The position numbers and the translations under genes were made by a program. A DNA stretch of 64,000 nucleotides, taken from positions 28,536,034 to 28,600,033 of the forward strand of contig NC_134829.1 of the NCBI RefSeq assembly GCF_004210375.1. Reading direction: 5' to 3'. Below, piece after piece: positions 10,181 to 60,552 of the stretch (its first letter is position 1; each line of letters starts with the position of its first letter). The stretch is from Tachypleus tridentatus. Taxonomy: Eukaryota > Arthropoda > Merostomata > Xiphosura > Limulidae. The notes beneath the pieces are model-generated. The model had not been told where the DNA came from and made no database searches. It saw nothing but the letters and a program-made list of their open reading frames with translations.

Positions 10181-10182
10181 TG

Positions 10183-16326: not shown

Positions 16327-16512
16327 ATGAATAAAGAAAAGAACATTGCTGTTCCAAGTTTCTCTTATCTTCAACAAAATGGGAAACCAAAAAGATTTAC
16401 TAGTTATTTCTCAGATATGGCAACTTGGATCAGAAAAGATGTCTGTGAAGCCATTGATTCTGGACTTCTAAACATTCAAATGACTGGCCCGAGACACTGT
16501 GAAGTAGTAAAG
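16327..16512 (+). CDS. ACD: ACD candidate exon 1: start of OB fold
   Basis: Residues 1-62. The chosen start is ATG at 16327 (MNKEKNIAVPSF); the frame stays open upstream to 16294, so an earlier start or an upstream exon is possible. The segment FSDMATWIRKDVCEAI aligns with the P-W-I-R-E-L-I entry strand of the TPP1 OB fold, and RHCEVVK with its first long strand (L-L-E-V-L). The exon ends in phase 0 at the donor aag|gtaaagt (16513). A weaker donor lies 6 bases earlier. Confidence 0.62.
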
Positions 16513-16862
16513 GTAAAGTCTTTGTAACTGATCTTCTGACATGATAAATACAATTTTTTTTTTAATTACTGTTGAACAAACACACATTTATAAAATCAAA
16601 TTCTTCACTAGTGTATTGCCATAAAACTAGATTTGTTTTTAAATGTCTCTCTCACTTAATGAAACATTTCAAGAAAAACAAAAAAGATTTAGCTTGTATG
16701 GAAAAACAAATTTTTGTTGTGGTTTGTAAGGGATGTATCAGTGAAAGGGTTGGAAGCTTAAAATATGAATGTAAGATCAGACAAGAAACTGTATTGTTGG
16801 AAGTGTTGTTTATTTCCAAAACAGTGCCAATGTTTTTTTATTTGATTTAGAAAATATAATAA

Positions 16863-17047
16863 AAAGGAAGCAAAACCTACATCGCCATTGTTATTAACTT
16901 GGAAATTTGTTTTTTCTTCAATGGACATTTCTGTAGACCAGTAAAAAGTGGATCATTGGTTGAAAACCACTGATTTAAGGCATGTACAGCTTTTGGTCAT
17001 GAGATTTCTCTGGAGTTATAAAAATAACAAGTGAATAATGTGGGAAT
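16863..17047 (+). repeat. 185-bp exact direct duplication, copy 1
   Basis: Identical over 185 bases to 19065-19249. It contains the right end of the hAT-like MITE (ggttgaaaaccactg) plus more than 70 bases of the flank beyond it, so it was not made by transposition of the MITE. It lies in intron 1 of the ACD candidate. Confidence 0.9.
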
Positions 17048-18839
17048 TTTTGAGTGAAGCTGCAGGGTCATAAACAGAAATATCTGCAGAGTGTAAAAAC
17101 TACAGCAAATATGATTTCAAATGATTATTGTAGGCTGTATCAGAGGAAAGAACATAAAACCGTAAGGCATATTACAAGAAGACTATAAAATGATATATGT
17201 TTTAAGTCAAATTAAAAATTTATTTAGTGAATAAGTAAGCTAAGATAAAGTGAAATAATGTGTGACTGAAGATATATGTACATTATGTTACACAGGAATA
17301 TATGTTTTACAAAATATGAAACATTTTTTACTTCATAATGAAATTTTATGAAGTGCATAAACATGTAAGGTGGTAAGTAACTGCTTTATCATTATTCAAC
17401 TAGGTTATGGCTATTATACTTTAGTGTAATTCCTTCATAAGCAAAGGGTAAAAATAAAAAACTGTTCAAAGAAACGTATTATGTTGAGAGTACTGATTTG
17501 CCCAGTATAAATGAAATGACAAACACTTAAATTTCTGAACTGTTTAATGAAAGAGAAGAAAGAAAACAGTTTCCTTTAGTCTGGTCTTTTATCATGTTTA
17601 AAAACAGTTAGTTCTTTTTTTCTCATTTTTGACTCATCTGTTTAAAGGTTTTGTAGCTTGTTTTCATGCTGATAATAATATTCTAGAATATTAATTGCTT
17701 GTGCTCAGTTCTATTAACTAAATGGACATCAATGTCTACAATTTAGACAAGGAGAAAGTAGTTGAAACTAAGTTCAGTGTTATAGTTTTCAGTGGTAAAG
17801 AATATTAAATGAAGTAGTGTCAAACATATCAAAACTGCTTTTGGAAGGCTTATTATCATTCAGTCAAACCTAAATTTCATGGCTTGAAAGAAAATCAAAG
17901 GTCATCTGATGATTACCATGTGAGTTTAACAGGAAGTTGCAAAATGTAAGTAAAATAAATGTATATTTTAGTAACAGTGATGTATCAACTTCGTAGCTCA
18001 TCTAAACAGGTGTTACTCAAAATACATCACAACTAACAAAAAAATTATTATTAAATATAGAATATTTGGACAGAATAGATGAAAGTGACATATTTGTTGT
18101 ATATCTATTTTAACTAATGTAAATTTAAAATTACCTTCACAAAAAAATTACAATCTGAATATGATATAATCATAAATGAAAAAATAAACACAATGAGATA
18201 AATATATTATTTTCAGATCTTCAAATAGCATAATACATGTGTAATGACAGAATTTTGTAAGTTAATGTAGAAATAGATTATTTTGCTTATGTGCTATGGT
18301 ATATGACACCAAATTAAGATTTCATAATATATGGAAGACTCCAGCAAACTCTTCAGTGAACATTTTGTTCCAGTATATTGAGCTTGCATGTATTTATCAA
18401 TAAAATCTCAATATGATCCTTGCTTAATTATGTATTTGACCATATGTATTTTAAATGGGATATAAGGTTCACCATAAATTTGTGATGCCATTACTCATCA
18501 AACAAATATTTTGATATATAGATCATGTGTTTTTTCAGGTTATGTTTATGGATTTATTACATTTTAAACAACCTGCTAAGATATCTGGTATGATAAATAT
18601 TTTGCTCTTTCATATCTTCTTAATAAAGTAGTAACATCAAGAAGATAAGGCCAGAACTCAATGTTTATATTATGTTACAAATCATGTAACATACTTGTGT
18701 CATCATTGCCATACACAAAGTATTTATTTTTACTAATAGTATGTTATTGTAGCTGCATACTTCCATTACCTTGACCTATTTTTCAGTAGGGCTGAATTGC
18801 AGCACCAGTGATTTTTTCAACCTTTTTGTTACTTGAGGC
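17048..18839. other. ACD intron 1, nothing recognised
   Basis: AT-rich intron sequence. An acceptor-like cag at 18539 is followed by a short open frame, but including it would break the phase with the next exon (see rejected items). Confidence 0.45.
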
Positions 18840-19176
18840 AATGGTTCTCAACCCTTTTCACTTTATGTCTACCAAAACTTTTGTAAATATTGTACCGACT
18901 GTGAGAAGTATATATAGTATATGACATCTCAATATAAAGTATCTGGAATGTAGATAGTTATATTTAATAGCATCATTGATAATCTAATTTCTAAACTGTT
19001 ACTGTGTTTAGTCCTATTCATTGTCATAGCTAAGAACCCAATCTCAAAGAGATATATGGATTAGAAAGGAAGCAAAACCTACATCGCCATTGTTATTAAC
19101 TTGGAAATTTGTTTTTTCTTCAATGGACATTTCTGTAGACCAGTAAAAAGTGGATCATTGGTTGAAAACCACTGAT
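18840..19176. mobile_element. hAT-like MITE
   Basis: About 337 bp bounded by caatggttctcaaccc on the left and ggttgaaaaccactg on the right, the usual hAT MITE ends. The eight bases outside each end (acttgagg and atttaagg) agree at 6 of 8, fitting an old 8-bp target duplication. No coding capacity. Confidence 0.6.
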
Positions 19177-19249
19177 TTAAGGCATGTACAGCTTTTGGTC
19201 ATGAGATTTCTCTGGAGTTATAAAAATAACAAGTGAATAATGTGGGAAT
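19065..19249 (+). repeat. 185-bp exact direct duplication, copy 2
   Basis: Identical to 16863-17047. This copy keeps the whole MITE on its left, so it is the likely parent. It ends 32 bases before ACD candidate exon 2. Confidence 0.9.
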
Positions 19250-19281
19250 AAATTTTTTAAAAGCAGTACATATCTTTCTAG

Positions 19282-19404
19282 TGTGAAAAAAGAAAAATTG
19301 AAGACACTTCTGGCAGTTATATCAAACGCATTACTGATAATCAGACCAGCATCATAGCAGTGTTTCTCAAGGAAGCAGTTGATGAGATGCTCCAGAAGAG
19401 GCAT
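19282..19404 (+). CDS. ACD: ACD candidate exon 2: OB-fold strands
   Basis: Residues 63-103 in phase with exon 1. The acceptor is tctttctag ending at 19281. The segment YIKRITDNQTSIIAVFLKEA matches the TPP1 OB-fold pattern of a hydrophobic strand, a (S/T)-D-x-x-(T/S) turn, then a second strand and the start of a helix. The 3' end is uncertain: gcat|gtagac (19405) keeps phase 0 with exon 3, while other GTs further on (for example at 19435) are also possible. This is the least certain exon because the frame stays open beyond it and the region lies next to repeat DNA. Confidence 0.5.
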
Positions 19405-20327
19405 GTAGACCATAAGATCAGTTTGGAAAATGTGTTCTTTTTCTATGCTCTACCAGTTCAAGCTCATCGCATCTTTATATATTTTCTTATGTAGCAAATA
19501 AATAATAATTTCATCACTTCATTTAATAGTAGTAAGATTAATGTTTTTGTAATTAGTTTTGCTTAAGTACAGTGCATATGAATGAAACAGGGATGGGTAG
19601 ATTTCAGGTTTTATAAAACATTTGATCTAAGAAAATCTTGTGGCTACTGGGTAGTATACCTAGGTGATTGTTTTTAAAAACTGTGACTGTCATAATTAGG
19701 TTGGGGATCAAATTCCCAAACACAGCTGTTTCTTCCACTGAATATATTTATAAGTAATTTATACCTGTTAACAGAATAGTATATTCAATAACCAAATTTA
19801 AATCTCTATGTTTTTATAAATATGTATCAAACAAGACTAACCACTGGCTTTTGGCTGTGAAAGAGTGCTCTGTCCTACCAAAAAGGTTAGACAGGAAAAA
19901 TCTTGAGATGCAGTTTTTAATGGCTGAAGATTATAAAAATGATACACTTAGTGTAATAGAGTTACTACTAAAGCTGTCACATCTGACCTGGGAAAGACTT
20001 GATAACATACTCCATGCCTTTAGTTTTTAGATTAACCAAGCTATAAACTAAAGGCATGTGCTCATTTTTCACTGTTTTCATGGCATTTTAAGCATATTAA
20101 AACCAATTTTAATGTTATTTTTCTACCTCTTGACAAAGTTTCTACTTTTTTATAACTTATTTTAGTAATATTCAATTCATAAGTAATCTCTCAAAACAAA
20201 ACTTGTACTTAAAGGTAATGCTTACGATTAAAAATAATAATAATTAGTTTTAACATTCAGTTTCTGCTTTATACTACATAATGGACCATTCTTGTGATAT
20301 CTGTTTGTTTTTTTAATTACAATTCCT

Positions 20328-20440
20328 AGGGCCTAGCATGGCCTGGTGGTTATGGCATTTGACTTGCACTTTGAGGATCATGATTTGAATCCCTGTTACC
20401 AAACATACTCATCCTATATGGTTGCTATCTATGCAAGCCA
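20328..20440 (+). repeat. SINE-A head fragment, old
   Basis: gggcctagcatggcctggtg, then a diverged B box (gatttgaatccctgttacca) and aaacatactcatcc. The remainder of the body is lost. In ACD intron 2. Confidence 0.58.
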
Positions 20441-20803
20441 GATGGGTATAAAAATTCTTGGCTTACAACACTATTGATCCCAAACTGGTAGAGATTGTAA
20501 CTGTAAAATATATATACATATGTAGTTTGTAATGCTTTGTTTTTCTGTAGAAACAAATCTCAGGTTGTTACAGATGTATTAAGTGAAATTCCACTATAAT
20601 GCTTTACCTGTTACTACATATTAGCTTTCCTCAGTGTAGGAAAATTACAACTTTAGAGTGTTTGATTGTTAATTTAAAGTGCACATGCATGCTTGTGCAG
20701 GATTTCAAAGTGTTGAGAATTAGAATCAAGTTACCAATGTGTCATGATCCAAGCTATTAGTTTTTCAAAACAGAAAGAAAACTCTCAAAGAATGAAAAAT
20801 TTA

Positions 20804-20960
20804 TTAACTCTTTCAGTGTGAGCTCAGTCAATTTGACCTGTTTGTACTTTTTTTAAATCTTTATAAGCTCAATACTTCTAGTTTTTAATATAGTGTGCAT
20901 ATCTTCACAAAATTTGGATTTTTTACAGTTACATTATAAGTCTTTCATGTGCAGAAAATC
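20804..20960 (+). repeat. Possible piggyBac-like MITE end
   Basis: Begins at a TTAA with ttaactctttcagtg. It shares atcttcacaaaatttgg and neighbouring text with the reverse complement of the right end of the element at 56198-57784. The opposite end was not found. Confidence 0.3.
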
Positions 20961-22110
20961 ATATTTTTAATAAACTAAAATAAAAATTTGTCTATTAAAA
21001 TATTGAGTATTTGTTTTATACAGTATGTAAAAAGTAATTTTCATGTTAAGAGTAAAAATACTTTTTCTCATTTCCAAAATCTCAAATTTCCTTTGTGTAA
21101 TTTCTTAAAGCTTTGAAATACATTTCAAACATCTTTTCTTCAGTAAATCTTTATATTTTATCTGTTATTTTTCTACCCAAAATCAAAATGGCATTGGTCA
21201 ATTTGACCAACCTTGTAAACACAAAAAATCAAAATTTAGGTTACCCTTTTTTCTTTCTTGAGTGACTACAAATTGTTAAATGAAACTACATTCATTTAGC
21301 CTAAGTAGCTTTAAACTCATAAGAATGTGTATCTGTTTAAAATTAAATATTATTATTTTATTGCCCTTTGAACTGTGCTAACTACTATCCGTTGCAAATC
21401 ACTTGTGGCACATATGCAGCTCATGTTATGCTATTGAATTACATTACTCACATGCTGCTTGTGTGCTTCTCTCATGAAACATTTTTATGATATTATTATT
21501 ATTACTTATTTTACGTAATCTAATTTTAACTAACCTAAAACATCTCTATTTTATACAACAAAAACCTAGAATAATGATATGCAGAAAGTAGACAATTTTT
21601 CCCATCTCTCTCAGTTTTTGTGGCTTTGTAACTGTGCAACAAGAACCATTACAAATTCATGAAAGCTAGTTGTTAAGTTTTTAACTGGAGCATTGTTTGT
21701 ATTCTGAATGCAATTGAGTATTATCTTTACTGAACACGGTGTTATGCAGTATATCATTTAACAGATGGAAACCTTCACTTCCTAGCAGTTTTGTGTAATA
21801 TACAATTAACTAGTACTCAATCCTGGAAGAGAAGGTGTGTCAGAAAGGGTCTGATTTCTGATTGATAGCTCTGTAACTGAATAAAATAGAAAGCTATAAA
21901 AAAATGGTTTGTCCGAGCAATAATGATTCTATAGTGAGTTTAATTTCTTACTCCTTCAAGGAGTAGTGAAAAAATTAAAAAAGACAAGATGCCTAGGGAA
22001 AATATGAAATTTTTTTAAATAGATAATTTAATGATTTCAGTCAAACGTGATAATATTTCAGTTATCTAATTAACAAGTTTTCAAAAGTGAAGGCTTGCAA
22101 AATATATCTG
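20961..22110. other. ACD intron 2, nothing recognised
   Basis: AT-rich. The words gtcaatttgacc occur twice (about 20828 and 21197), which may be parts of one decayed MITE. Confidence 0.35.
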
Positions 22111-22123
22111 TGTATTGGATGTT

Positions 22124-22398
22124 GGCCCGGCATGGCCAAGCGTGTTAAGGCGTGTACTTCGTAATCCGAGGGTTGCGGGTTCGTGCCTGAGTCGCGCCAA
22201 ACATGCTCTCCCTCCCAGCCGTGGGGGCGTTATAATGTGATGGTCAATCCCACTATTCGTTGGTAAAAGAGTAGCCCAAGAGTTGGCGGTGGGTGGTGAT
22301 GACTAGCTGCCTTTCCTCTAGTCTTACACTGCTAAATTAGGGACGGCTAGCATAGATAGCCCTCGAGTAGCTTTGTGAGAAATTCAAAAACAAACAAA
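22124..22398 (+). repeat. SINE-A, young, with perfect target site duplication
   Basis: Full-length copy with head ggcccggcatggccaagcgt and a caaacaaa tail. It is flanked by the 13-bp direct repeat tgtattggatgtt at 22111-22123 and 22399-22411, which marks LINE-type insertion and fixes both ends of the family. In ACD intron 2. Confidence 0.95.
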
Positions 22399-23035
22399 TG
22401 TATTGGATGTTACATAAGCTAAGTGAATTGACTTTTTCATGAATAGTATGAGATAAGGCACTGAAGATCTGCATTTTGTTACCTTATCACATGTTCAGGT
22501 TTATGTAGGGAAGAAAATCATGGTATTTCTGTTAATTAGTTTTGCTGTTAAAAAATAACTAAAATTGAGCCATGGCCCTCTAGTTTTCTGATATAATACT
22601 CTTCTCTGTTTTATTTTAATTCAGTTTTTTGTCCAGTTGTGTGAGTTTTTTTATTACATGAACTTGTTTTGTTTTAATTATTCAGATTATTGTTATCTTT
22701 CCTAACTTAATGTATCCAAATATTACTATATATGAATTTATTTTGTTGTTTTTCTGCATGCACAAATTTTATAAAATTGTTTTTTATTTTTAATTGAAAT
22801 TAATTTTTTGAACAGTGTTTTCATCTTAGGATAAAAAATTATTAGCTAAAATAAAGAAGTATTAACTAAACATTTTAAATTATACCTGAATTTGAAGCAA
22901 ATTATAGTCCAAATCTGAAATAGAGTGAATCACACATTATAATGTTATGCAAAGCTTTCTTACTTTGAATCCTGAATAATATCTTAGAAAGTATTAGATT
23001 GATGGTAAATAATAGTATATTTCTGAAGGTTGGAG

Positions 23036-23122
23036 GAACCAGAAGATTCAGAAATCAATTGGGAAGAAGGGGTTGTTATTTTGGAAAAGTACAGAATTAT
23101 TTACTTAAGTTTACCAGAATCT
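23036..23122 (+). CDS. ACD: ACD candidate exon 3: OB-fold strands
   Basis: Residues 104-132. The frame reads EEPEDSEINWEEGVVILEKY and then RIIYLSLPES. This matches the D-W-E-E ... G-(R/V)-(L/V)-(L/I)-L-(Q/E)-x-(C/Y) strand pair of the TPP1 OB fold. The acceptor is either ttggag|gaa (start 23036, phase 0) or ctgaag|g (start 23029, phase 2); I chose the first because it joins exon 2 in phase. The donor tct|gtaagtat at 23123 is strong and leaves phase 0. Confidence 0.68.
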
Positions 23123-23934
23123 GTAAGTATATGCTTTATGCGGGTCTTCTATCTCTATTCTTTTATGTGTTTTTTAAGCTAACAGTAGGATATAATACTT
23201 TTCAATAACTTCTACTTAATTATAATTTTGACCAAGTTAAATTAGCAGTGAGATAAATATATTTTTAATTTTAATTTACAGAAGGATATTTACATTATTT
23301 TGTCTTTGTATTTCTCAAGTTAAGTCAATAAGATAGCATGTTCTACATTTCTTTTTCTTTCATTAAAATTTTGCATTGAGATTTTGTAATAATAACTGCT
23401 TTTAAACTTTATGTTATCCTCAAAATGTACAGCTGTTGATTATTTTCATAGTCTTTATTCATAATATATGTAGCAACATCAACTAACCAAATGTAGAGCT
23501 GGGTGATATAATGGATTAATTGATACCCATAAGCATTGATTACATCACTCGTTTTCTCATGAACTAATCACTTAATGAAATTATGATTAACTGATTAATG
23601 TCACAAGAGTAATCGAGTAATTAAAGTTTTTATTATTTCAACAGTTGATTAATTGGTCAATGATTCAATATATTGACTTTAAAATAAATGATAAAAATTA
23701 GTTATTTTGGTCACTACTGTTCTTTATTATTGCAACAGTTGATTACTTGAAAGTATGACTGATTTGGTTTTCATGAAAATGATCAACTAATTAAGATTAA
23801 GGTGTCTGATAAATTACTGTTTTTGATTATTCCAACTATTCAAATCCAAATATTACCATAATGTTAATTCATCTTCTGAACACGAAGCTGCATGGTAGGT
23901 GAGTGGCAAGGGGTACTATGAGATAAATTCGTTT

Positions 23935-24056
23935 ATCCTCTCTTTGTTATTGCAAAGCTACTAAGATTATCTGTTATTGGCACTAACTTGGAACTTCTGA
24001 CTAGAAGGAAGTCATCTAGCTGGCAGCACCCACTGCAAACTCTCTGACTATTTAAG
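23935..24056 (-). repeat. SINE-A fragment, old, reverse orientation
   Basis: gcaaagctactaagattatctg, then gactagaaggaagtcatcta, then gcagcacccactgcaaactc follow the reverse SINE-A order with heavy divergence. In ACD intron 3. Confidence 0.55.
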
Positions 24057-24890
24057 TGTAAATGTACTGTTGCTATTGTTATTGTGTTATGTTTCTAACT
24101 TATAACTGTGTGACCTTATTATTTAACTTTGTGTGAGTAGGTATAGATGTAGAGGAGAGGTTCAAGAGAGAAAACCCTTACCCATCATTTTCAGAAATAA
24201 TAAGTATTATTTATTTTCATGTAAGCTGGTGAAAATTGTATTGCCTTATTGTTTTAGTTTAGAATAAATTTACAAATTATCAGTTAATGAGCCCATCAGT
24301 TACTAACTAGTAAATACCACTAATTACCCAATTTTATCCACATGTTATTAACTAAACAATAAGTTGTGTTTCTTTACAAATACGTCTTAGCACAAAATTT
24401 GGGACTTTCTTCTAATATCAGATGTCACACCTCCTAAAAACAATAAAATTGCTTTTGGCTCAAATATTTGATTAAGACTTGTGGCAAGTATGCACTGTGC
24501 ATAGGTAGGAGCTGTAAATAATAATTTTAAGGGGTTGTTAGTTTTGTCTTTTGTTCAGCATTTCTGGATTATCTACTTTTAACATGTAGTAAATTTGTTA
24601 TATTTTATGTAACCATAAGAGAATATTTTCTACATTTTTGCAAGCTCTATATTTCCACTTTTTGTTTTGACTGTATAATTACTGTACTTAATCCACTACT
24701 TTTTTCTTTAATTCTGTGTTTGTATGTGTGTGTAGTCAAGATCTAAATGGGATATTTCAAATTCCTCTTCCATGATGTTAGGTGTTCAAGTTATTGTACT
24801 AACTCTTGTATTTTTTTTTATTTTGAATTAAATACTTGTACTTATTTCTGTTTCTTGTAAGTTCCACATAATATGTATGTATAATTACAG

Positions 24891-24976
24891 AAAACTGGAA
24901 CTTTTGCTATCCAAGTAGATAAATTTGACTATCTGGGTGAGCCACTCTCTTCTTTAATGAAAGATTACCCATTTGT
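24891..24976 (+). CDS. ACD: ACD candidate exon 4: last OB-fold strand
   Basis: Residues 133-161. It reads KTGTFAIQVDKFDYL and then GEPLSSLMKDYPFV. The core FAIQVDKFDYL is the best single match in the gene to vertebrate TPP1 (F-Y-L-Q-V-D-R-F-S-L-L). The acceptor is ataattacag ending at 24890 and the donor is ttgt|gtaagtat at 24977. The exon is 86 bp, ends in phase 2 and joins exon 5 to make Val. Confidence 0.78.
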
Positions 24977-25586
24977 GTAAGTATTTGTGTAAAAAACTAA
25001 ACAGTTTTTTTGAGTAATTGAAATTATTAAAAATTGTTTTGTAGCATGTGTTTGGTTTTTTTAGGTATTTTGTTATGTGACTTTAATTTGTTGTACTATT
25101 TACTGTAGGTAGTGACAGGGTCAAAAAATAGTTCTTACTTTCAGTAGTATCCATTGTTAAACCACAACAATGGAAAGATGGTTTGAAATAATGTGTAACA
25201 AGATGTTTAACATAACAATTTTAAAAATATATTGAATTTAACCTGCCACTACAATTTATAGTTTTACATTTAGAAATCTGTGATACATGATGTCTATTTA
25301 CCAGATATGAATTTAGCTTGTTCCAAGGAAATAATTAACTTTTTTTTTACCTTGGAATTTTTCATTGTGATTATTGTAAGAAATAGCTTAACAGTACTTA
25401 AGTCTATTTGTATAAAATGAAATATGCTAATTTGAGCTTCCCTGACATCTGCAGTGAGCATTTTTATAAATATTTGTATATGTGTAATATTGTTTTTTTC
25501 ATGGTTTGTTAATATTACTATATATACTTCTTTTGAGATACAACCAGGTGACATAAGTATATAAGTATGAAAAAAAGACTAAAACA

Positions 25587-26356
25587 TTAACTCTTTGGCT
25601 ACCGAATTATTATTTTTAACTAATGCTGATTGCCACATTCTTTTTGCCTGTTAGTACCAAATAGGGGTGCATTACATAAAAAGTTTATAAGTTCACTGCA
25701 AATGAATATATAAACATGACATTTTCAAAGTTTGTTTGGAACATACATAGTTGGTTAGCCAGTCCTGTTCAAACATTTCCATTTCTTCCAGAATTTCCCA
25801 CTGCCACCAGACATCCTGTTCTGAACTTGTCGATGGGGTGAAATTCCTGAACTGATTCCTTAGGTCTTTCCTCAAACTGTGGTCATTCTTCCCCATGATT
25901 TCACTGACCTTCCCCTAATAGTAGAATCATACCCCCTCAGGGTGTTAACTATGCCTATTCACTTGGTTGATTCTAACTTGCTCTGTCTTCTTTTTCTACT
26001 TTCTTCACCACTGCCTTCTGAGTCTTCTTCTGAGCTGTCATACTCAAAATATACACTCCGTGAGTCTAAATCATGATGAATGTCTGCACAAAGCCATCTT
26101 GGAAAAGGTGTTGACAAAATTCTTCCCTTTTTTCACATTCCTGAAACAATACTAATCACTTGATCAGGTTCATGAATATATAAATAGTATAAGATAAACG
26201 TCTAAGATTCATGAATATTAAGTGGGACCTTTGAATTTGCCTGTAAAATGCTGTTATCTATTGAATAAAGAGGGCACTATGAAAATTTGACTATAGTCAC
26301 AAATAGCACAAAGCCATAGAATTGAGTACAGTTAAATTTGGCAGCAAAAGAGTTAA
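25587..26356 (-). mobile_element. piggyBac-like nonautonomous element with transposase remnant
   Basis: Flanked by TTAA on both sides (25587-25590 and 26353-26356). The inverted ends of about 20 bp are ctctttggctaccgaatt on the left and, in reverse complement, ctcttttgctgccaaattt on the right. On the minus strand near 26060-25970 it encodes an acidic run (YDSSEEDSEGSGEESRKR), typical of piggyBac transposase N-termini. Near 25860-25790 there is NQFRNFTPSTSSEQDVW in another frame. It is an internally deleted derivative, inactive. In ACD intron 4. Confidence 0.72.
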
Positions 26357-26555
26357 TAAATAAGTAAGCTTTTCCTAATTTTTTTTCTCATTTCTCCAAA
26401 TTGTCATATGTTTATTTAGTAAGAAAATGATTTGCTACTAAAAAATTTATTGTTTAATCATCAACATAAATTTATTTTTGTTTAAAAGTTAAGCCATTAT
26501 TTGATAAATTAAGAGGCCACAGACCATAATGATAGTGTCATACTGCTGATAAGTA

Positions 26556-27041
26556 TAGTGGAACGCTGTTAAGCCGCGGTATTTGGGGGGTCAATCTGCT
26601 TAACCGTGACTTAAACCTTTGTGACTGAAAAGCCGAAGTCACCAACAGCTCCGCCGAGGAGCCTCATCCGGGCCATTGCGTCATCATTATACTATTAATG
26701 TATAGACTATTCAGATACAATTGACAAGTGCCATTTTAACACAAATGACCAAATTTTATTTATTTCCCAAATTAAAGCAAATCCTTTTTAAATATCCCCT
26801 TGAAGTTATAAAGCCAGGATTAAATTTGTAAGCCGCATTTTTACACGTTCTTAAATTAGCGGTGAGCTGTGATAATCCTCGCTCACATTTGTCATGTCAG
26901 TGTCAATGACAAGGAGAGTGTGAGAAACTTTAAAAAGCCAGGTAGTAGATTTAATACATCAAAAATTTTGGGACAAGACTTGATATACCGGCTTAAGCGA
27001 TTTCGTGGTTTACTGGCTCACAGCTTAATGGCGCTCCACTG
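26556..27041 (-). mobile_element. Tigger/pogo-like MITE, copy 2
   Basis: Flanked by TA on both sides. The terminal inverted repeats read tagtggaacgctgttaagcc on the left and cagtggagcgccattaagct on the right in reverse complement. Subterminal and central text matches copy 1 at 7881 in opposite orientation. In ACD intron 4. Confidence 0.75.
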
Positions 27042-27453: not shown

Positions 27454-27516
27454 AATTCAAAGATCTGAAGATGATCCAGAACTTCAGAAAAAATGCCAAG
27501 ACTTTGAGCAAAAATT
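27454..27516 (+). CDS. ACD: ACD candidate exon 5: helix after OB fold
   Basis: Residues 161-182: IQRSEDDPELQKKCQDFEQKL. The DPELQKKCQDFEQKL part aligns with the D-L-D-V-Q-K-K-L-Y-D-C-L-E-E-H-L helix that closes the TPP1 OB fold in vertebrates. The acceptor tctttttag ends at 27453 and the donor aaatt|gtaagttt is at 27517. The exon is 63 bp, entered and left in phase 2. Confidence 0.75.
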
Positions 27517-28975: not shown

Positions 28976-29035
28976 TGCAGTAAAACAAACCAGCTTGGAT
29001 ACTTTAAGGTTAAAACAAGCACAAGCTCCAGATAG
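28976..29035 (+). CDS. ACD: ACD candidate exon 6: linker
   Basis: Residues 182-202, AVKQTSLDTLRLKQAQAPD after the split Phe. It is polar and probably a linker leading to the POT1-binding region. The acceptor tttgtttccag ends at 28975 and the donor gatag|gttagt is at 29036. The exon is 60 bp and keeps the phase chain. Confidence 0.65.
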   Translation, partial: CSKTNQLGYFKVKTSTSSR

Positions 29036-29036
29036 G

Positions 29037-30638: not shown

Positions 30639-30808
30639 TCAAGAAACTTCAACAGAATTAGAAAGTCTTCTTATTGATGTTCTGGAGGAGATTGATCCAC
30701 TGGCAAAAATAAGTGGCAAGGAATCAGTGAAGTCTCTATGTGCTGGAAATAATGCAGCTGATTTTCTTTTAATAAGTTCTCAAAGCTCACAAGCGCGCTG
30801 GATAGTTA
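30639..30808 (+). CDS. ACD: ACD candidate exon 7: probable POT1-binding region
   Basis: Residues 202-259. It has the hydrophobic-acidic stretch TELESLLIDVLEEIDPLA, in the position of S-L-S-Q-L-L-D-E-M in human TPP1, just before the POT1-binding segment. It ends SSQSSQARWIV. The acceptor tatttcag ends at 30638. Two overlapping donors exist: ata|gttagt at 30805 looks stronger, but only gtta|gtattt at 30809 joins exon 8 in frame (making Lys), so I used the latter. Confidence 0.68.
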
Positions 30809-31049
30809 GTATTTATTAGATTAAATATTACATCACATTCTCTGTAATTATGACACTATGTGACAAAATTTTTCCTTTTTCTTGTTCCTGGGCAGAAAGT
30901 GTTATTTCCCAATGCTTATGCCTAAAGTAAATGGAAAAGACCTATTTTTCTCTTCAAAGTTTGCTTTTGTGACTATGACAATGAAGTTTTCAAATTTACT
31001 CATTTTTCAGAACATTCTAGGTAGATTCAGTGCTGAGTAACTGATAGAG

Positions 31050-32115
31050 AATTTTCTAGACTCAAGGAGTGGGGTGTGTTAGATGAAAGTGTGCAAGTTG
31101 AAGTAAGAAGAAGCATCACCGACATTTTTCAAGCTTTTTCACTCGTCAAGATAGGCTCTGCTTCTGCCACAGTGTATCTGGTCTGTGCGAGGCAATTGGC
31201 GTTGCCTGTAGCCCAAATGAGTGGTGCCTCTTCATTGATAGTTCATTCAGAAGCCTCAAAACTGTGCTGCTCCATAATGGGAATAAGTATTCGTCTCTTC
31301 CCCTGGCTCATTTGGTGTGCCTTAAAGAAGAATATAACAGTTTCAAGACCTTGCTAGAAGCCTTGAAGTATGATTAGTATGGCTGGGAGGTTATCAGAGA
31401 CTTCAAAATGGTGGCATTCCTGATGGGTCTCCAAGGAGGCTTTATCACGTTTCCCTGTTATCTTTGCCTTTGGGACAGCAGGGACAACACAGCACACTAC
31501 AACAGGAAGCACTGGCCACAATGGATCGAGGTCTCTGTGGGGAGGCATTATGTCAACTGTGAGCCACTAGTGGACCTCCAGGTATTGTTCCCACCATTGC
31601 ACATAAAATTGGGTCTTATGAAACAATTTATCACAGCTCTTGATAAAGAGTCTGCAGCCTTCAAATACCTTCGAAACTTCTTCCCTGAGCTGTCTGAGGC
31701 AAAGGTCAAAGCTGGTGTCTTCATTGGACCACAAATAACAAAAGATCTTGTAGTGCACAGAATTCCCCAAGAATCTCAGTAGGAAGGAAAAAAAAGCTTG
31801 GGGCAGCTTTGTTGCAGTGGTTTGGGTCTTGGGTAATCACAAGGCTGAAAATTATGTGGAACTGGTTGAGGCTCTGGTGAAGAACTATGGCAAAATGGGC
31901 TGCAGGATGTCCCTGAAAGACCATATCCTTGATGCTCATCTTAATAAATTCAAAAAGAACATGAGAGCATACTCAGAGGAGCTAGGCAAGCACTTTCACT
32001 GAGATATACTGGACTTTGAATGCTGCTACCAAGGAGTGTATAATGAAAACATGATGGAAGACTGTATTTGGGGGCTGATACATGAAAGTGATTTAGATTA
32101 CAGTTGCAAATCTCA
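31050..32115 (+). pseudogene. Decayed element ORF of an uncharacterised repetitive family
   Basis: Runs in two or three frames with stops. About 31205-31370 reads NEWCLFIDSSFRSLKTVLLH and onward. About 31408-31780 includes FPCYLCLWDSRD, then PPLHIKLGLMKQFITALDK and KVKAGVFIGPQI. About 31832-32090 reads LGNHKAENY, CRMSLKDHILDAHLNKF, HFHxDI and YQGVYNENMMEDC. I recall this family as a recurrent repeat-borne ORF in cnidarian and arthropod assemblies with no assigned function. The conserved His, Cys and Asp residues suggest an enzyme fold, but I do not name one. It lies in ACD intron 7 and is disabled. Confidence 0.7.
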
Positions 32116-32589
32116 AAAAACTACTCATTTCTGAACATTTTTGTATAACTTTAGTGTAAATACTTGTAAATCTTGATTCATATGTAGTTTTATACAGACC
32201 TTAGGTAAATGAAAATGTACAAGTTTGTCCATTTTTACATAGAAAATAGGTTAATTTTTAAATTTCGTTATCCAGGTCACAGAAGCAAAGTTTGAAGGGA
32301 ATAATGGCCATTTTCTTTACTTTCACAACATAAGCAATTAAGAAAACATGCACTATCTAGGAACAAAATTTGTGTTACATAGTGTTATTATTGTTTCAAA
32401 ACATGATAAAAATTTTAAATAATTAAATTAGTAATAGATGTATTGAAACTGAAAATATTACATATTTTATTTGTGAGCAAGGTTGTGGATCCAGAGTCCT
32501 GAACTTTAGCCTTTGATAAAGTACTAACATGTTGCATTTTCAGCTGTGCACTTCATCCAAAGGTGACAGTCAATTCTGCTATTCACTTA

Positions 32590-33080
32590 AGAGTAGCTAT
32601 ATAGGCAATGTATGCTGTAGCAGTTCTAAGTTACATGTGGCTGTTTCTTTGACCTATGGCCTAACTTTTTGGTCATTGTGTAACATAAGATGCTGTTCTA
32701 AGTTAGAGATGACTATGCCTAGTCTTTTAACACTTGGCTTGGCTGTTCGGATATCTTGTTGCATGAGATGCCATTCTAAGTTACAAATGGGTTTGCCTCC
32801 TCTCATCTTTCACCTGTCCATTTGGACATTTTGTTGCACGAGATGCTGTTACAAGTTGCAAATGGCTCTGCTTTCTTTGATTTCAGACATGAATATTTAA
32901 CCATTATGTTACATGGAGTGCCATTCTGACTTAAATAATGCTATGCCTATTTCTTTTATCTCTGACCTGACTATTTGATCATTGTATCGCATGAGGTGCC
33001 TTTCTAACTAGCAGATAGCTACATATGTTCCCTTGACCTCTGGCCTAGGCATTTGGACGTTGTGTTGCATAAGATATCAA
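32590..33080 (+). repeat. Minisatellite, about six units of 75-78 bp
   Basis: Units are anchored on t(t/c)ggNcattNtgttgcatgagatgc-like text at 32671, 32749, 32824, 32899, 32977 and 33055. Spacings are 78, 75, 75, 78 and 78. An earlier partial unit starts near 32590. Units are about 70-80% alike. In ACD intron 7. Confidence 0.82.
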
Positions 33081-33744
33081 GATATTAGCAAGCTTTACAA
33101 TTGAATATATGAAACTTGACAAATTGTTGTGTTTTACTTAAACATAAGAACAAATGAAAAATTAGTAACTAATTAATAATCATGGTTATGGTGTAGATGG
33201 ACAATAATTATTAAAGCATTTAGTACATTCATTTTAACAAAGATAAGATATGCATGTATGAATGTAATATATTTTACACTGTAATATAAACAGATGTTAG
33301 TTTTTGTGAGGATAATATTGAAATCAGAATTTTTTGTAATATTTTATTTTCCTCTATAAGAAATTATAATTCATTGTTTAATTTCTTTTAATGTCTCAAA
33401 ATGATGATATCTTTTTAACAATAACAAACTTAGATATTAAATTATATTAGTACACCATTTTTCTTATTGTGTACATTTATATATATCTATATGGTTGTGT
33501 TTTTCCATAATAATGCTATTAAAACTTGTTGATTCTGAAATACTCAAGAGGCCCTTCTATGTTAAATTTACTAACACCGTTAGTGGAGTGATTTATACAA
33601 AACAAAAAGTATACAGTTATAGCTAATCTTAGTGCCTTTTTTTAAAAATAAAAAAGATGAAAATGTTTGTTGGGGGTTATGTTTGTTTTGTCTTTCAAGA
33701 GCTTTGATACAGATGTTAAATGTCTACATAAATGATAACTTCCA

Positions 33745-33985
33745 ATAACTTCTTTCCTAAGTAGCTATTCTCAATTAGTGCTGCTCTCTATAAACATTTA
33801 TTTTGCATGCCACAAGTCTTGAGTTCCCATGTACCTTACAATCAAATGGTTGAACTGCATCTCACATGTAAATCATCATGTGACAGCCACTACCAGTAAG
33901 AGTATGATATACTCTTCTGACATATGAGACTCTATTCGATTCTACTGAACAATCACTTCTCCTTTGGATGTACACAAGTCAAGAT
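33745..33985 (+). repeat. DIRS left inverted terminal repeat
   Basis: Pairs with 37545-37785 read in reverse complement at roughly 75-80% identity. The clearest shared block is around gcatgcca(c/t)aag and ctcacatgtaaatcat (33815-33880). Confidence 0.78.
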
Positions 33986-36900
33986 GTTTTTGATGTACTC
34001 TTCTATCATGTTTTTTGTTCAACTTAGTGAGTTTTTTTTGTTATTCTGAAGTGGTTGTTTTTTTAAAAGTTAATGACTTTTCAGATAACTTATTTTTCCA
34101 TTTTATCTTTTTTCTTTCCACATCAGACATTTGTTTTTGATTTTATATTGTTACACAACGAATTACAAAGCTCAAGTTACCACTTCAGAGATAATACGTT
34201 CTACTAGCACACTTATACAAGTTACAGATGGAGGTGATTCCTCTTTGGACTTATTGGTTATCATTCACCAGGGGATTGATCATTACATGAGTCAACCTGC
34301 CTCTTCTGATCTTTCTCCTATTCCTCATGAACATGCAGAACCTGTTCAGATCAAGAAGTATTTTGCAGTCTGTTTCCCTGCTCATGCCCCTACTGTGGAA
34401 TCAGCTAGGCCTAATATGGTTTTCTTAGACATGATATCTCATGTAGGTTCTGCTTTATCCATTTTCCCGATTTTATATAACCCCCTTTTTTTTTGTTACA
34501 TTTGATAATATTTGATATTAGAATTTATTCTGAGCATTTTGTTTCTCAGATGATTGATGGTGCCAGCATTTCTCACCCTCTATGAGCTTTAGATAACTTC
34601 ACCATAACTTACCATCAGGCTGAATGTCTATTTCTCAATTCTCAACAGTTAGGATCAATTTTACTCGTGGAGAGTGAACCCTGATCTTTTATTTGTTTAT
34701 CCCAATTGTATCACCTTCAGTTTACTCTATTGATTCTCCAATGAAACTTATGTGACACCCGCCTCCTTCCAAAACAATCCACAGAGATCCTGAGGGCATT
34801 TTTTAGGGATAACCTCTTTATTATTATCTTCACATTGGTACATTTGTCTCCTTTAGCTCTATCCTTATGCATGTGGTTCTGCTGTTGTTGGGATCTCTTT
34901 GGGAAGGACACTGTTTTGTTCTAGATTTTCTTGCCACCTACTTATCTCTGGAACTTACATATGGTCCTTTTTTTACAATACAGTGTGTTTTTGGTACTAT
35001 TCCTGAAAATATGGAATCTTGTGTGGAGCCAGTGAGACAATAAACTACTTTTTCTTTTTGGTGGATCGTTTGTCTCATTCAGATCTTTCAGTCCTCCACA
35101 CCTTTATTGCTCCCTTTTGGAGATGTAGTCTGCTGTGGAAGCTTCTGTCTCCTTGAGTCAAGCATGTGCAAGGTCTCTTCAGTGGGCTCTGTAGGACCAG
35201 TGGAATCTTGTGCAAAATTTAATAGAAGCTCCCTTACCCCTTCTCTTGATGATGATCTGCATTGGTGGTTGTACATGGTTCATAAGTTGGTAGGTATTCC
35301 ACTTCCACCTGCTCATTTGGATGTGCATACCTTTGTGGACACTTCCCTCCAGGGCTAGGACACATGGGACAATAAACAAGAAGCTTGAGGTCTATTGTCT
35401 CCAGCCAAGTGATATAACCATATGAATATCCTGGAGCTTCTAGTCATACTTAGTGCTTTGGATCATTTTCTTCAACTTGCCAGGAATCCATTCCAACAGT
35501 TCTACAGTAGTGTCTGTCTTATATCAGTATCCAGGATGGTACCCATTCTCATTCCTTTTCTGATCAAATCTTGGATCTTTCATTTTTGGGTCCACATGCT
35601 TGGCATTTGTCTCCTTGTGTGCTATGTTCCAAATGTATTCAGTCCAGTCACATTTAGTCATTCCCATCCTGACAAAGTTTATCTGATGGAGTGATCTCTC
35701 GATCCTCTTGTTTTACAGTGGTCATGCCTTCACTGGGGTACTCCTCACCTTGATGCATTTACTACATTCTTCAATAACAAGTCACCTATGTTTTGATCAC
35801 TGGTTCCTCATCCCCTTGCTCTGACTGTCGATGCATTCAGTCAAGATTTGACCAACAAACACCTTTATGTGTATCCTCCCTTTCATCTTCTTCTTAGGGT
35901 GATTTTTATCATCCAGATCAATCCTTGTCAGGTCCTTCTGGTTGTTCTTTACTAGCCAGTACAACTCTGAATACCACAACTGCTCCACCATTACCTCTTT
36001 CTATTACTCCATCCCTTTTACATCAGTCTTGCTCACTGGTGTTTCATCCAGCTCTTCATAACCTCCATCTTCATGCCTGTTTTTTATCCAGTCTTTGGAA
36101 ATGAGATCTGATTTTTTCCCAATGGTTCACTTCCTTTTTCAACTTGTTCCATTTGTCCTTCTTTTAGGGATGTTCATCAGTGTAAGTGGAATGTTTTCTG
36201 CCATTGGACTTCAGGTCAGTCAACCCATTGTTTATCATGTTAGGGATTTCATCACATGGCTATCTCCTTGATCTAAGTTCTGTACAGTTCCAAACCACTG
36301 GAGTGGTGGACTATAGAAAATCCCTTCTTAATATGATACTTATATATGGTTCAAATAATGTTACAACCATTCAGTTGAGAGTAGGGTGATAGTGTTCTGT
36401 TAGTGTAGATGATGAAATGCCCTACTACATTTCTGTACAAGTTTATCCAAGGAAATGTGAAATGTTGTATCTTTAAAGTGAGTCATTGAAATAGTTTAAC
36501 CCTTCATTTGGGATCCCTCATACTACCCCCACATGGATGTCATTTCTCAGTGACTGGGTTTTTTTATTCAGAGCTGAATCAATCAACATAAACTCTCACA
36601 CATGTCTTATAAGTATCTCTGTGCCTTTCTCAATTATTCTTTTATTCCCTCCAGATATGTTGTGGTTCATGGTGGTTGATCCTACAGATTAATCCACTTC
36701 TTTATCTTATGCTGTCCTTTAGTGATTTTCTTATTTGAAGGATGTTATTGCAGTGGGTGTGGTTACTGTTGGATTGGTTTTTAGTATGATAGCTTACATT
36801 GCAGAGACATCTTTACTACATTGTGTGGATGTCAGGTTTCCAGATCAGTTAAACATTTTACACATTACTATTGCACATCCTATTCAAAGAGCAGTTGTTT

Positions 36901-37544
36901 TGAAATTCTCTCTGTTCTGTTGAACTTGAGGTGAAGACAGTATGACCCTTTTTCCTACTTCCACGAGATGGATAAGATTTAATTTTAGTTGACTGCTACT
37001 GGTATGATCCTCCTTCCTATCTCCACATGAATGTTGTTCCTGGCAGCTGGGTTTTGGATATAATTGACTTGTGTACAATCCATCATGCCCCAACCACTAC
37101 TATATCTAGGGGCATGTCATTTTACTTTTACCCTACATTCCAGTAATTTGTGGGATTGAGATTTGTGATATATATATATGGTGGTTCAGATCTCTATCCC
37201 ACCATTATTTCCTTCCATAAGGATGTACTATTCCCTTTTTGTCTCTCTCATGTCTACAGCACCTAATTTCACACAGTTGTGGTGTAGTCACCTACATACA
37301 ATCTTCTACTGTGAGGATCTACTCTTTTTAAGGTGTTCTTCAGATGCTTTCGAGGAATGCTTCTTTGTTTTTCCTTTGCACCTGTTCCTCCAAGTATTTA
37401 ATATGGAATTCTAGCTAATTATGTGAATGGAGGTAAAGTACTGTATTGGAAGATGTAATTTTCCTATACTAAGAATATATTTCTGATACACACTTTCACC
37501 ATCTCACACTTCCCACTCTTCCTCCCCACTGAAAACTGGTGTTT

Positions 37545-37785
37545 CATTTTCTAACAAATCTCAAAGTGATAGTTCAGTAGAGTCAAATAGAGGGAGTCAC
37601 ATCCTTCAGGAGAATGTGTCACACCCTTATTGGTAAAGAGTTGTTGCATAATGATTTACATGTGAGACACATTTCAACCAGTTGATTGTAAGTTATGTGG
37701 GAGATCAAGGCTTATGGCATGCTGTAAATTTTTTCCATATACAGGGAAGCACTGAACAAGAATAGTTACTTATGTGAGTAGAGGT
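37545..37785 (-). repeat. DIRS right inverted terminal repeat
   Basis: Mirror of 33745-33985. It holds atgatttacatgtgagacac at about 37658 and ggcttatggcatgc at about 37709. Confidence 0.78.
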
Positions 37786-37929
37786 AAGTATACATTGAAA
37801 TTATTTTCAGTATAGAAAAATTATAATATTTGTATTTATTCATTTCCCATCAAGTGTATTAATATTAGAAATTTGTTTCAGTTTCATACTTATCTCAATT
37901 CTTTCATAAGGTACTTTTCTTCTTTTCAG

Positions 37930-40117
37930 AATTGGAATCTTCTTCTGAATATATAATCAGTGACAATGGAGTTATTGAAAATAATTTTTCTAATTTAGAT
38001 CATAATAGTAGATTCGAAAAAGAAAGACTTCATTCTAATGGAAGTAATCAGATTTCTTCCAAACATATTTCAGATCCAGGTGCAGATACAGTCAGCAAAG
38101 CATGTGATATGAATTCTGAGATTACCGTTACACACAGTACTCCAGCAGTCCCAAGTATCAATAATGGAAAAGAGTATAAAGTCTTGAGAAGTGGCAGACT
38201 TATTCACGGTGTGAACCAAAAACAAACATCTGACACAAAATGTTCCATCAGTGAACAAAAGACTAGCTCACTGAATGACAGTTCTCTGTTATTTGCCAAC
38301 TCAGTGCTGTCTGAAGATTGTAATACTAGAAGTAAGCATAAAAGAACTTTGAAAAATTATGAAAATGAACAAAATACCACAGAGAAATCTGTATTAGCAA
38401 GCAGATCACCTTCTAAAAGGAAAAGTGTTGATTCTGGTGGTTCAAGTGCACTGAAGAATAGAAAATACATAAGGAAAGAATCTAGTGTGACAAGTATTGT
38501 AAACATGGAGGGAAAAAGACGTTTTAACAATACTTTATTAAAAGACTGTGATAATGTGACTTGCAGTGCATCAACAGATGAACCTGATTCTATAATTCAT
38601 GATGATTTTGTTACTTTAGAAGACTTTGACAACAGAGTAGTCGGTGGTGTTGACAAGAATATGTCTGAAGAATTATACAGTAATTCTGGCTATGATTTAA
38701 TTAAAGAAAAATATACAGTTAGTGAAAGTAATTCTTACTGTGAGGAAACTAGAGTTGTGAATGCTGTGTTGCAAGGTTTACAGCCTTGTAAGTATATCCA
38801 ATCTAAAAGTAATACACAAGAAGAAGAAATGAATTGCTATCAGAAAACTACTTTGTTGTCCTCTGAGGAGTATGCCACCACTCCAGATTTAAATATTCTG
38901 GAAGTATCAGAAGGACCTTTTAGGTGTTCGTCCCAGATCCCGAGGTCTAATACAAAAGACCACCTAAAAAACAATGGACAAAAAACTGCTGCTTACAATA
39001 TGTTTTTCATCCTCAAGAATCTTTAGATGAACCTTTGATGATTTCACCAACTCCAGTAAAAGAAGATAGAAAAAATGATTCTAAAAATAATTTTAAAAGA
39101 TTCGAGTACAGTAGGTTGGAAGCACAGAAGGAAATTATCAGTGATAACTTCTGTCCTAAACAGGAAATGCAAATTAGCAGCTTTTGCACCCCACCTCATT
39201 GTCTAATTGATCTTACACATTCATCTTCATCAGACGAAAATGAATCTTATGTTTCAGAATCTAAAACGGCACTTTCACAGAATAAAATGAACACTGAGTC
39301 TTCATGTTATGCAGATAATAATGTTGAAAGCCAGGTTGACAGTTTGGTATTTGATGGGTTTGGCATGACCTACACGTTTAGAGATTCTCATCCAGATATT
39401 GTTGAGAAACCATCTAATAATTACAGTGACCACTTAAACCGGGTAACTCCTTTACCTTTTGATAAGGATACTTGTAAGAGAAATTTAAATTTCCAACCTA
39501 AAGGTTGTCATGATATTTCAGTTAAAGAAATGGAAAGTAAAAGGTTTGAATCTTGGTGTAATGTATGTGAGAGAAGTCTCATTTCATGTACGTGCTCTTT
39601 AATAAGAGCAAACTTAAACACTCTGACAGACTCTGAAATCTCTCCTATTCTTAGTAAATCAAAATCTAAACCAGGGTCATATTTCACACCAGATAAAGAA
39701 AAACCTAAATCAGGTCCTGATGTAGCAAAAATTGAAGGCACACATGAATCAGGACTCGATATAACAGCATATGAAAGAAAATATAAATCTAGACCTGATG
39801 TTATAGGAAATGAAGGAAAACATGAATTAGAAATTGATGTAGCAACAGTTGAAGGAAAACATGATGTAGGAGCAAACAAAGGAACAAGTTATTCTCTTCA
39901 AGCAGAGGGAGGTGAATTACTCAAATTTTCAGGTATTTTAACCTCTGCTGAAGTGATACTACCTAAAACAAATGCTGATTTGACTGGTCACCATAATAGG
40001 AGCTCATGTGCTTCTGTTTCCTCTACAGGATACGTATCTTTTGACTTTACAGACTCTCAGATTGAAAGGATGATGCATCTTCTTCTTAGAATGCTGGATA
40101 TTAAACAAGATACTTAG
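37930..40117 (+). CDS. ACD: ACD candidate exon 8: long C-terminal region, frameshifted
   Basis: About 728 codons after the acceptor cttcttttcag (ending 37929), to the TAG at 40115. The first frame (37932-39023) is Ser/Asn/Lys-rich with nuclear-localisation-like SPSKRK. It stops at 39024. The -1 frame is open from 38951 to the end and looks coding throughout, starting RPPKKQWTKNCCLQY. One -1 shift between 38951 and 39023 therefore joins them. Further on there is a Cys cluster (WCNVCERSLISCTC, about 39555-39597), six 13-residue repeats (39662-39895), and a final amphipathic segment FDFTDSQIERMMHLLLRMLD at 40039-40098. That segment sits where vertebrate TPP1 has its TIN2-binding helix (L-P-P-Q-L-M-A-W-A-L-H-F-L). 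Without the shift the helix is lost. Confidence 0.68.
39662..39895 (+). repeat. In-frame 39-bp tandem repeat inside ACD exon 8
   Basis: Six 13-codon units start at 39662, 39701, 39740, 39779, 39818 and 39857. They read K-S-K-P-G-S..., KPKSGPDVAKIEG, THESGLDITAYER, KYKSRPDVIGNEG, KHELEIDVATVEG and KHDVGANKG. Units two to five are clearest. Confidence 0.82.
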
Positions 40118-46550: not shown

Positions 46551-46567
46551 TCAAGGTATCTATCACA

Positions 46568-60550: not shown

Positions 60551-60552
60551 AA

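Follow-up and report, generated by a model that had tools for sequence, protein, structure and literature searches.

A probable orthologue of the shelterin subunit TPP1 in a horseshoe crab genome

Analysis of a 64,000-nucleotide stretch of genomic DNA (the window) revealed a locus that is very probably the TPP1 orthologue (gene ACD) of a horseshoe crab; TPP1 is the shelterin subunit that connects telomerase with the chromosome-end cap in vertebrates. We favor this identity because an OB core split over exons 2 to 4 passes the curated TPP1 profile, no second copy of the locus was found, and the genome contains TTAGG arrays and likely a telomerase gene. Eight plus-strand exons between positions 16327 and 40117 together form a plausible single gene. 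The exon chain, rebuilt from the sequence, is as follows (working labels in parentheses):

Exon 1 (E1), 16327..16512, plus strand: start codon and 62 codons containing W-I-R-K, ending in phase 0 at the donor AAAG/gtaaag; placed by open frame and phase.
Exon 2 (M), 19282..19400, plus strand: CEKRKIEDTSGSYIKRITDNQTSIIAVFLKEAVDEMLQKR, at OB strands beta2-beta3; alternative end at 19404 with a GT donor.
Exon 3 (E2), 23029..23122, plus strand: LEEPEDSEINWEEGVVILEKYRIIYLSLPES, covering the acidic loop and an OB strand; may instead start at 23036.
Exon 4 (E3), 24891..24976, plus strand: KTGTFAIQVDKFDYLGEPLSSLMKDYPF, last OB strand (human counterpart EFYLQVDRFSLL).
Exon 5 (E4), 27454..27516, plus strand: IQRSEDDPELQKKCQDFEQK, proposed to form the OB domain's C-terminal helix; consistent in phase and codon frame.
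Exon 6 (E5), 28976..29035, plus strand: phase and codon frame fit, with a good acceptor.
Exon 7 (E6), 30639..30808, plus strand: hydrophobic-acidic stretch where the POT1-binding domain is expected; donor at 30804 or 30808; placed by phase and codon frame.
Exon 8 (E7), 37930..40117, plus strand: long last exon up to the stop codon, with two open reading frames, 37869-39026 and 38951-40117.
C-terminal segment, 40046..40114, plus strand: FTDSQIERMMHLLLRMLDIKQDT, assigned by position to the place of the human TPP1 TIN2-binding helix.

The incoming and outgoing phases of exons 1 to 7 (0/0, 0/2, 2/0, 0/2, 2/2, 2/2, and 2/1) are consistent throughout, an agreement that is not fully independent because phase was also used in choosing the exons. 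The assigned frame had the highest codon score of the three in all seven short exons; this score penalizes stop codons and therefore favors an open frame. When the product of exons 1 to 7 was compared with the genome, all 7 matches fell at this locus, on the same strand and in exon order, and no second copy of these exons was found. Splice sites were scored with rough generic weights, under which several accepted acceptors score below 0. Two junctions are weak. Exons 2 and 3 are joined either by a GC donor (AAGAG/gcatgt) and the acceptor at 23029 or by the GT donor at 19404 and an atypical acceptor at 23036 (the latter judged by eye). Between exons 7 and 8, the in-phase donor at 30808 scores -6.6, whereas the donor at 30804 scores -2.3 but requires an acceptor that, by eye, is less typical. 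The preliminary description spoke of eight open segments with proper splice borders and phases that all agree; the segments are indeed open (the last one with a frame change) and the phases of exons 1 to 7 fit, but "proper borders" was too strong for these two junctions. A search of the window against Rfam gave no result.

The spliced OB core passed the curated cut-off of the Pfam TPP1 profile (PF10341, 26.5 bits) with 29.4 or 26.7 bits, depending on the splice variant (E = 8.1e-7 or 5.5e-6), although these E-values flatter the match, since exon 2 was selected with the same profile and exons 3 to 5 had been chosen when TPP1 was already under consideration. A significant profile match to the TPP1/Est3 OB fold, whose absence was one of two conditions set beforehand for refuting the preliminary description, was found with two splice variants, while none of four controls (three shuffles and one reversal of the spliced core) matched. 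The match spans profile positions 58 to 129 of 158; a full-length match including the N-terminal strand and the C-terminal helix was not reached, with exons 1 and 5 adding 0 to 2 bits. A longer product of 259 amino acids scored 24.8 bits (E = 2.2e-5), slightly under the cut-off. Exon 2 was picked from 93 candidates, those within known repeats having been excluded, by a TPP1-profile scan of 10 concatenated proteins and was, among the matches listed, the sole candidate with a TPP1 alignment extending upstream of exon 3. The scanned proteins carried 9 to 10 copies of exons 3 and 4, and because of this repetition the absolute scores of the scan (more than 100 bits for Vps36, among others) are artefacts; only the position of the top-scoring TPP1 alignment was taken from it, the candidates having been scored in concatenation. 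Searching the genome exon by exon with PF10341 gave three weak places elsewhere, one of which contains a transposon piece, and none at this locus. A phmmer search of PDB with the final model returned no TPP1 at E ≤ 10, and the same applied to earlier incomplete models.

The contribution of single exons was assessed in chimeras with human TPP1. Exons 3 to 5 raised the PF10341 score from 40.3 to 62.2 bits (+21.9), compared with 39.1 to 39.9 bits for eight shuffles and 37.8 to 41.8 bits for eight real or reversed tails, so that the 16 control tails gained at most 1.5 bits. With GG in place of the first eight crab residues of the tail, the gain fell from 21.9 to 7.9 bits. Exon 2 added 19.8 bits to the C-terminal half of human TPP1, exon 3 added 10.8 bits (control tails, -2.5 to +1.5), and replacement of the human end by exons 4 and 5 added 10.3 bits, with the alignment reaching only through exon 4. 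Two further segments were considered as exons and rejected. Segment 21750-21834 (YHLTDGNLHFLAVL...) resembled human beta2-beta3, fitted in phase after 18539-18587, and raised the pairwise z score but was rejected because it is part of an interspersed repeat (20883-21986) that has 65-72% copies on C1 and C6. The splice scores of segment 18539-18587 were the best in its phase, yet it gained only about 4 bits in a chimera (99.5 versus 95.3) and became unneeded once exon 2 joined exon 1 in phase. The gain of the repeat segment was similar (77.6 versus 73.7); chance segments therefore attain about 4 bits, compared with 10 to 20 bits for exons 2, 3, and 4.

In direct pairwise comparison with human TPP1, the final model reached z scores of 4.6 or 3.7 (22 and 97 of 20000 shuffles reach the score), but such shuffle tests proved misleading here because a false model with the repeat-derived exon scored as well or better (local z 4.6-5.2). 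The false two-exon model gave no TPP1 profile match, whereas the final model does. The score of exons 3 to 5 alone was reached by 228 to 325 of 10000 shuffles, and exon 1 alone was not significant. The OB-core strands occur in the same order as in human TPP1/ACD (PDB 2I46, 7QXA, 5UN7, and 5XYF): the crab beta2-beta3 strands (IKRITDN..SIIAVFLKEAVD) match the human stretch, human EGRLLLL corresponds to crab EGVVILE, and human FYLQVDRFSLL corresponds to crab FAIQVDKFDYL. The human TEL patch, at which telomerase docks, we take to comprise D166-E171, R180, L183, L212, and E215. In a by-eye alignment, with numbering checked for the human protein only, the crab acidic loop EEPEDSE falls at this patch and L183 and L212 are kept, whereas R180 is replaced by V and E215 by P.

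Outside the OB core, the two proteins share the order of a middle region followed by a short C-terminal hydrophobic segment, but the POT1- and TIN2-binding parts, unlike those of human TPP1, are unrecognizable by sequence. Exons 1, 5, and 7 and the C terminus showed no statistical likeness to TPP1. The scores against human TPP1 were reached by 5816 and 8099 of 10000 shuffles for the region at the position of the POT1-binding domain and by 1585 to 3505 of 10000 for the C-terminal hydrophobic segment against the TIN2-binding helix. Four proposed TPP1 features were not supported: the hydrophobic-acidic stretch as POT1-binding region and the short C-terminal helix, neither above shuffles; the W-I-R entry strand, whose exon 1 gains only 1-2 bits; and the DPELQKKCQDFEQKL helix (QKK helix), for which the gain of exon 5 is nil. 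Given its small profile gain, exon 1 is placed by phase, start codon, and order. It is conceivable, though unlikely, that the OB core is TPP1 while exon 1 and/or the last exon come from another gene or are joined via missed exons, so that the ends of the product differ. The small gain of exon 1, the C terminus without significant likeness, and the intron between exons 7 and 8, which is 7 kb long with transposon pieces and weak borders, point in this direction; an additional exon between these two was looked for and not found. The fitting phases, the agreement in strand and order, the correct codon frame of the short exons, and the short segment closing the last exon, which by eye looks helical and lies where it is expected, argue for a single gene instead.

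The two open reading frames of the last exon comprise 385 and 388 codons, much longer than chance would produce; at 0.078 stops per codon the chance of an open run is 1.4e-13 for 364 codons and 1.9e-14 for 388. According to the codon score, the frame shifts between about 38950 and 39026; a search for an intron explaining the change found no strong one. The last exon matched no Pfam family at E ≤ 1. If it is read as one, the crab product is about twice as long as human TPP1, with the excess mostly in this exon. The long last exon of the preliminary description is real, but that description lacked the internal frame change. This frame switch without a strong intron to account for it could indicate a decaying TPP1 pseudogene in which the change is real and fixed, but we consider this improbable: apart from the switch the reading stays open, with 388 codons downstream of it; the genome search turned up no other copy that could replace the gene; and the change would also be accounted for by an indel, either allelic or from the assembly, or by an unusual short intron.

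Relatives of the TPP1 OB fold include ciliate TEBP beta (PF07404), which belongs to the same lineage, and yeast Est3 and fission yeast Tpz1, which share the OB-fold class and a telomerase role. A longer human TPP1 stretch scored 11.6 bits against TEBP beta and the human N-terminal half plus crab exon 3 scored 15.3 bits, both below the cut-off of 26.6 and the latter owed largely to the human half; the crab product alone gave no TEBP beta match. A different small beta domain (GLUE/GRAM or other PH-like, as in Vps36) with a chance likeness to TPP1 is very improbable. Exons 3 to 5 alone do score best against the Vps36 GLUE domain (PF11605, E = 0.011, below its cut-off) and do not match TPP1, but crab pieces without human parts reach just 13.7-16.4 bits against its cut-off of 24.1, addition of exon 2 gives E = 8.1e-7 or 5.5e-6 for TPP1 while Vps36 remains at 0.034, a Vps36 segment placed in the chimera used for the crab exons does not raise the TPP1 score, and a true Vps36 is expected to match its profile strongly.

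The TPP1 reading also agrees with the genomic setting. The genome, described beforehand as chelicerate-like, could be narrowed to a horseshoe crab by coagulogen. It contains TTAGG arrays, with 132 overlapping matches to (TTAGG)8 and 0 to the reversed pattern, and two neighboring places matching the telomerase profile, likely a telomerase gene. POT1, TIN2, and TRF, in contrast, were not convincingly found, which counts against this reading, although the genome search had little power. By analogy with human TPP1, the crab OB fold would dock telomerase via its acidic patch (D166, E168, E169, and E171 in human; EEPEDSE in the crab), the middle region would bind POT1 at the single-stranded overhang, and TIN2 would be bound by the C-terminal helix. 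The protein may thereby act as a telomere bridge that connects both telomerase and the overhang with the double-stranded telomere. The linker separating its POT1 and TIN2 sites would be unusually long.

A 2014 BLAST survey of six insects and two mites reports shelterin genes in none of them and proposes that arthropods lost shelterin as a result of the change to TTAGG (PMC4296714). The presence of TPP1 in a horseshoe crab whose genome has TTAGG arrays argues against such loss as a general rule. The chances are about even that horseshoe crabs retained TPP1 as a shelterin-type bridge at their TTAGG telomeres, in which case the change from TTAGGG to TTAGG alone did not cost arthropods shelterin, together with a single-exon linker of several hundred residues that alters the spacing of the POT1 and TIN2 sites. 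The work of Myler et al. 2021 on metazoan shelterin evolution probably includes invertebrate TPP1s already, which makes the present one less surprising. The crab TPP1 makes testable which arthropods retained TPP1 and when it was lost.

The candidate TPP1 (ACD) gene was rebuilt exon by exon to obtain coordinates, with phase also among the selection criteria. The chain comprises eight segments, in which exon 2 is called M and exons 3 to 8 are called E2 to E7:

16327-16512, plus strand, E1
19282-19400, plus strand, M
23029-23122, plus strand, E2
24891-24976, plus strand, E3
27454-27516, plus strand, E4
28976-29035, plus strand, E5
30639-30808, plus strand, E6
37930-40117, plus strand, E7

Phases agreed from E1 through E6, having also helped to pick these exons, and a codon score trained on 614 E7 codons, with stops penalised, ranked the assigned frame as the best of three in all seven short exons. 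The open frames of E7 (385 and 388 codons) are far above chance expectation. The M/E2 junction is weak: M ends either at 19400 in a GC donor (AAGAG/gcatgt) spliced to the acceptor at 23029, or at 19404 in a GT donor spliced to an acceptor at 23036 that is atypical. For the likewise weak E6/E7 junction, the strong acceptor at 37930 has no good donor of matching phase. E7 also changes frame at about 38950 to 39026. No strong intron was found to account for this change and the codon signal flips between frames there, which points to an indel (allelic or from assembly), an unusual short intron or a genuine break. Of the eight segments with proper borders and agreeing phases proposed in the preliminary description, the phases of E1 through E6 stood, but two borders are weak and E7 changes frame.

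Chains lacking M gave no TPP1 match in hmmscan. A segment at 21750-21834 looked right as the missing exon and fitted in phase, but was rejected, since it lies inside an interspersed repeat with copies on two other contigs. This repeat (20883-21986), which contains the TPP1-exon mimic, recurs with 65-72% identity at C1:45985331 (L013) and at C6:32886084 (L016); a third copy, at 57299-57724 of the window, is partial and 66% identical. The search that yielded M covered 93 candidates lying between E1 and E2 outside known repeats; they were joined to E2-E3 and scanned in 10 concatenated proteins. A TPP1 signal appeared in three of the ten, and in only one did the best stretch reach upstream into the candidate, namely M. 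This exon (SYIKRITDNQTSIIAVFLKEAVDEM) aligned with a 24-residue stretch of human TPP1. The first intron also carries a 188-base stretch twice (16860-17047 and 19062-19249; 99.5% identity), resembling a recent duplication.

The spliced OB core that includes M matched the Pfam TPP1 profile PF10341 above its curated cut-off of 26.5 bits, with 29.4 bits (E = 8.1e-7) for the GT variant (157 amino acids) and 26.7 bits (E = 5.5e-6) for the GC variant (162 amino acids), bearing out the TPP1 identity that had been staked on a significant OB-fold profile match. After a 93-fold penalty for choosing M, the E-values were 8e-5 and 5e-4. The match spans profile positions 58-129 of 158; the 259-amino-acid product scored 24.8 bits (E = 2.2e-5), and three shuffles and one reversal of the spliced OB matched no family. 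In alignments with human TPP1 alone, the model fared less well, its score being reached by 22 of 20,000 shuffles with BLOSUM62 (z = 4.6) and by 97 of 20,000 with BLOSUM45 (z = 3.7). Such pairwise scores do not discriminate here, because a comparable test of the false model, which contains the repeat segment, gave local z values of 4.6-5.2. The profile does discriminate, as it returned no TPP1 match for that model. A phmmer search of the PDB with the model returned no TPP1 at E ≤ 10.

Chimeras with human TPP1 were also scored against PF10341. The N-terminal half of the human OB fold alone gave 40.3 bits and rose to 62.2 with the crab E2-E4 tail, compared with 39.1-39.9 for eight shuffled E2-E4 tails and 37.8-41.8 for eight real or reversed tails; replacing the first eight tail residues by GG lowered the score to 48.2. 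E2 by itself added 10.8 bits, E3 10.3 and E1 about 1. M joined to the human C-terminal half scored 78.7 versus 58.9 bits (+19.8). E4 added nothing, and the helix proposed there was not supported as a TPP1 feature. The same holds for the C-terminal helix and the POT1-binding region after the OB fold, whose likeness to human TPP1 was no better than that of shuffles; both appear to resemble it only in order and kind. Judged by sequence, the OB core is a member of the TPP1 family, and M, E2 and E3 form the supported part of the predicted gene.

Horseshoe crab genomes underwent duplications. The corrected E1-E6 product gave seven matches at E ≤ 10 in the genome (best seven candidates scored), every one of them within the present gene, collinear and on the same strand. 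A query that also contained the false segment and the last exon gave 18 matches, of which 9 fell here; the others (E = 0.15-9.6) were to the repeat segment (three) or a short stretch near residue 850-900 (six). No duplicate from the genome duplications was thus found.

Other repeats in the window include a SINE-like interspersed element of about 270 bases in many copies that share about 72-97% identity, some of them arranged as tandem or inverted pairs (window comparison: 673-969, 4167-4437, 6968-7239, 10182-10453, 22121-22399, 46566-47064, 49324-49850 and others). The intron before the last exon holds a repeat remnant (30846-32390) with 88% (32005-32390) and 70% (30846-31006) identity to parts of locus L002 on contig C3. 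Non-LTR retrotransposon pieces occupy 59860-63254, with endonuclease and reverse transcriptase domains in 60511-62394 (PF03372, PF14529, PF00078).

The window (G000:C5:28536034-28600033; 33.6% G+C) belongs to a 2.17-Gb assembly of 205 contigs, earlier called chelicerate-like. Contig C11 holds a coagulogen gene (4 of 19 matching pieces), two joined exons of which were identical to PDB 1AOC, the Tachypleus tridentatus coagulogen, at 95 of 98 aligned residues, all three differences lying within the first six. To our knowledge, coagulogen is restricted to horseshoe crabs. Two of the 18 hemocyanin pieces were compared and scored 158-188 bits to chelicerate hemocyanins (3IXV, 1OXY and kin), versus 78-92 to other chains. 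Both markers uphold the chelicerate assignment and sharpen it to horseshoe crab, probably Tachypleus.

On contig C13 near 133.29 Mb, two Telomerase_RBD places lie 4 kb apart and in order (L034 and L032; G000:C13:133291800-133295868), one passing the cut-off alone (26.9 bits), the other only with in-frame neighbours (23.9 bits alone, 25.3 with them); the other 9 of 11 places were below it. By eye, the C13 translations resemble telomerase motifs, and the pair is likely a telomerase (TERT) gene. Exact (TTAGG)8 had 132 overlapping matches in the genome, versus none for the reversed control. Arrays of (TTAGG)n lie at C1:96743525, C1:178837084, C6:77569425, C19:2633418-2726089 and other places, those of C1 (187 Mb) and C6 (170 Mb) well interior to the contigs. 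An exon-by-exon profile search gave no convincing POT1, TIN2 or TRF. This is not evidence of absence, because the search proceeded by single exons, the TPP1 profile missed the present locus and the POT1 and TRF controls were silent.

A 2014 article that searched six insects and two mites found no shelterin genes in them and attributed this to a shift to TTAGG (PMC4296714); another article reports meiotic telomere proteins in Limulus (PMC7227075). Among the papers listed on shelterin/TPP1, horseshoe crabs, chelicerates, metazoans or other invertebrates and TTAGG in a full-text collection with few subscription papers, no title or abstract opening announced a horseshoe crab TPP1.

Provided that the last exon is read as a single unit, the crab product would have about 1,000 residues, versus 458 in human chain 7QXA_O, the extra length lying mostly in that exon. 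In a by-eye alignment with checked human numbering, human L183 and L212 are retained, whereas R180 and E215 are changed. By analogy with human TPP1, the acidic loop EEPEDSE of exon 3 (DWEEKE in human) may serve as the telomerase patch, and the binding sites for POT1 and TIN2 would lie in the middle part and at the C-terminal end, respectively.
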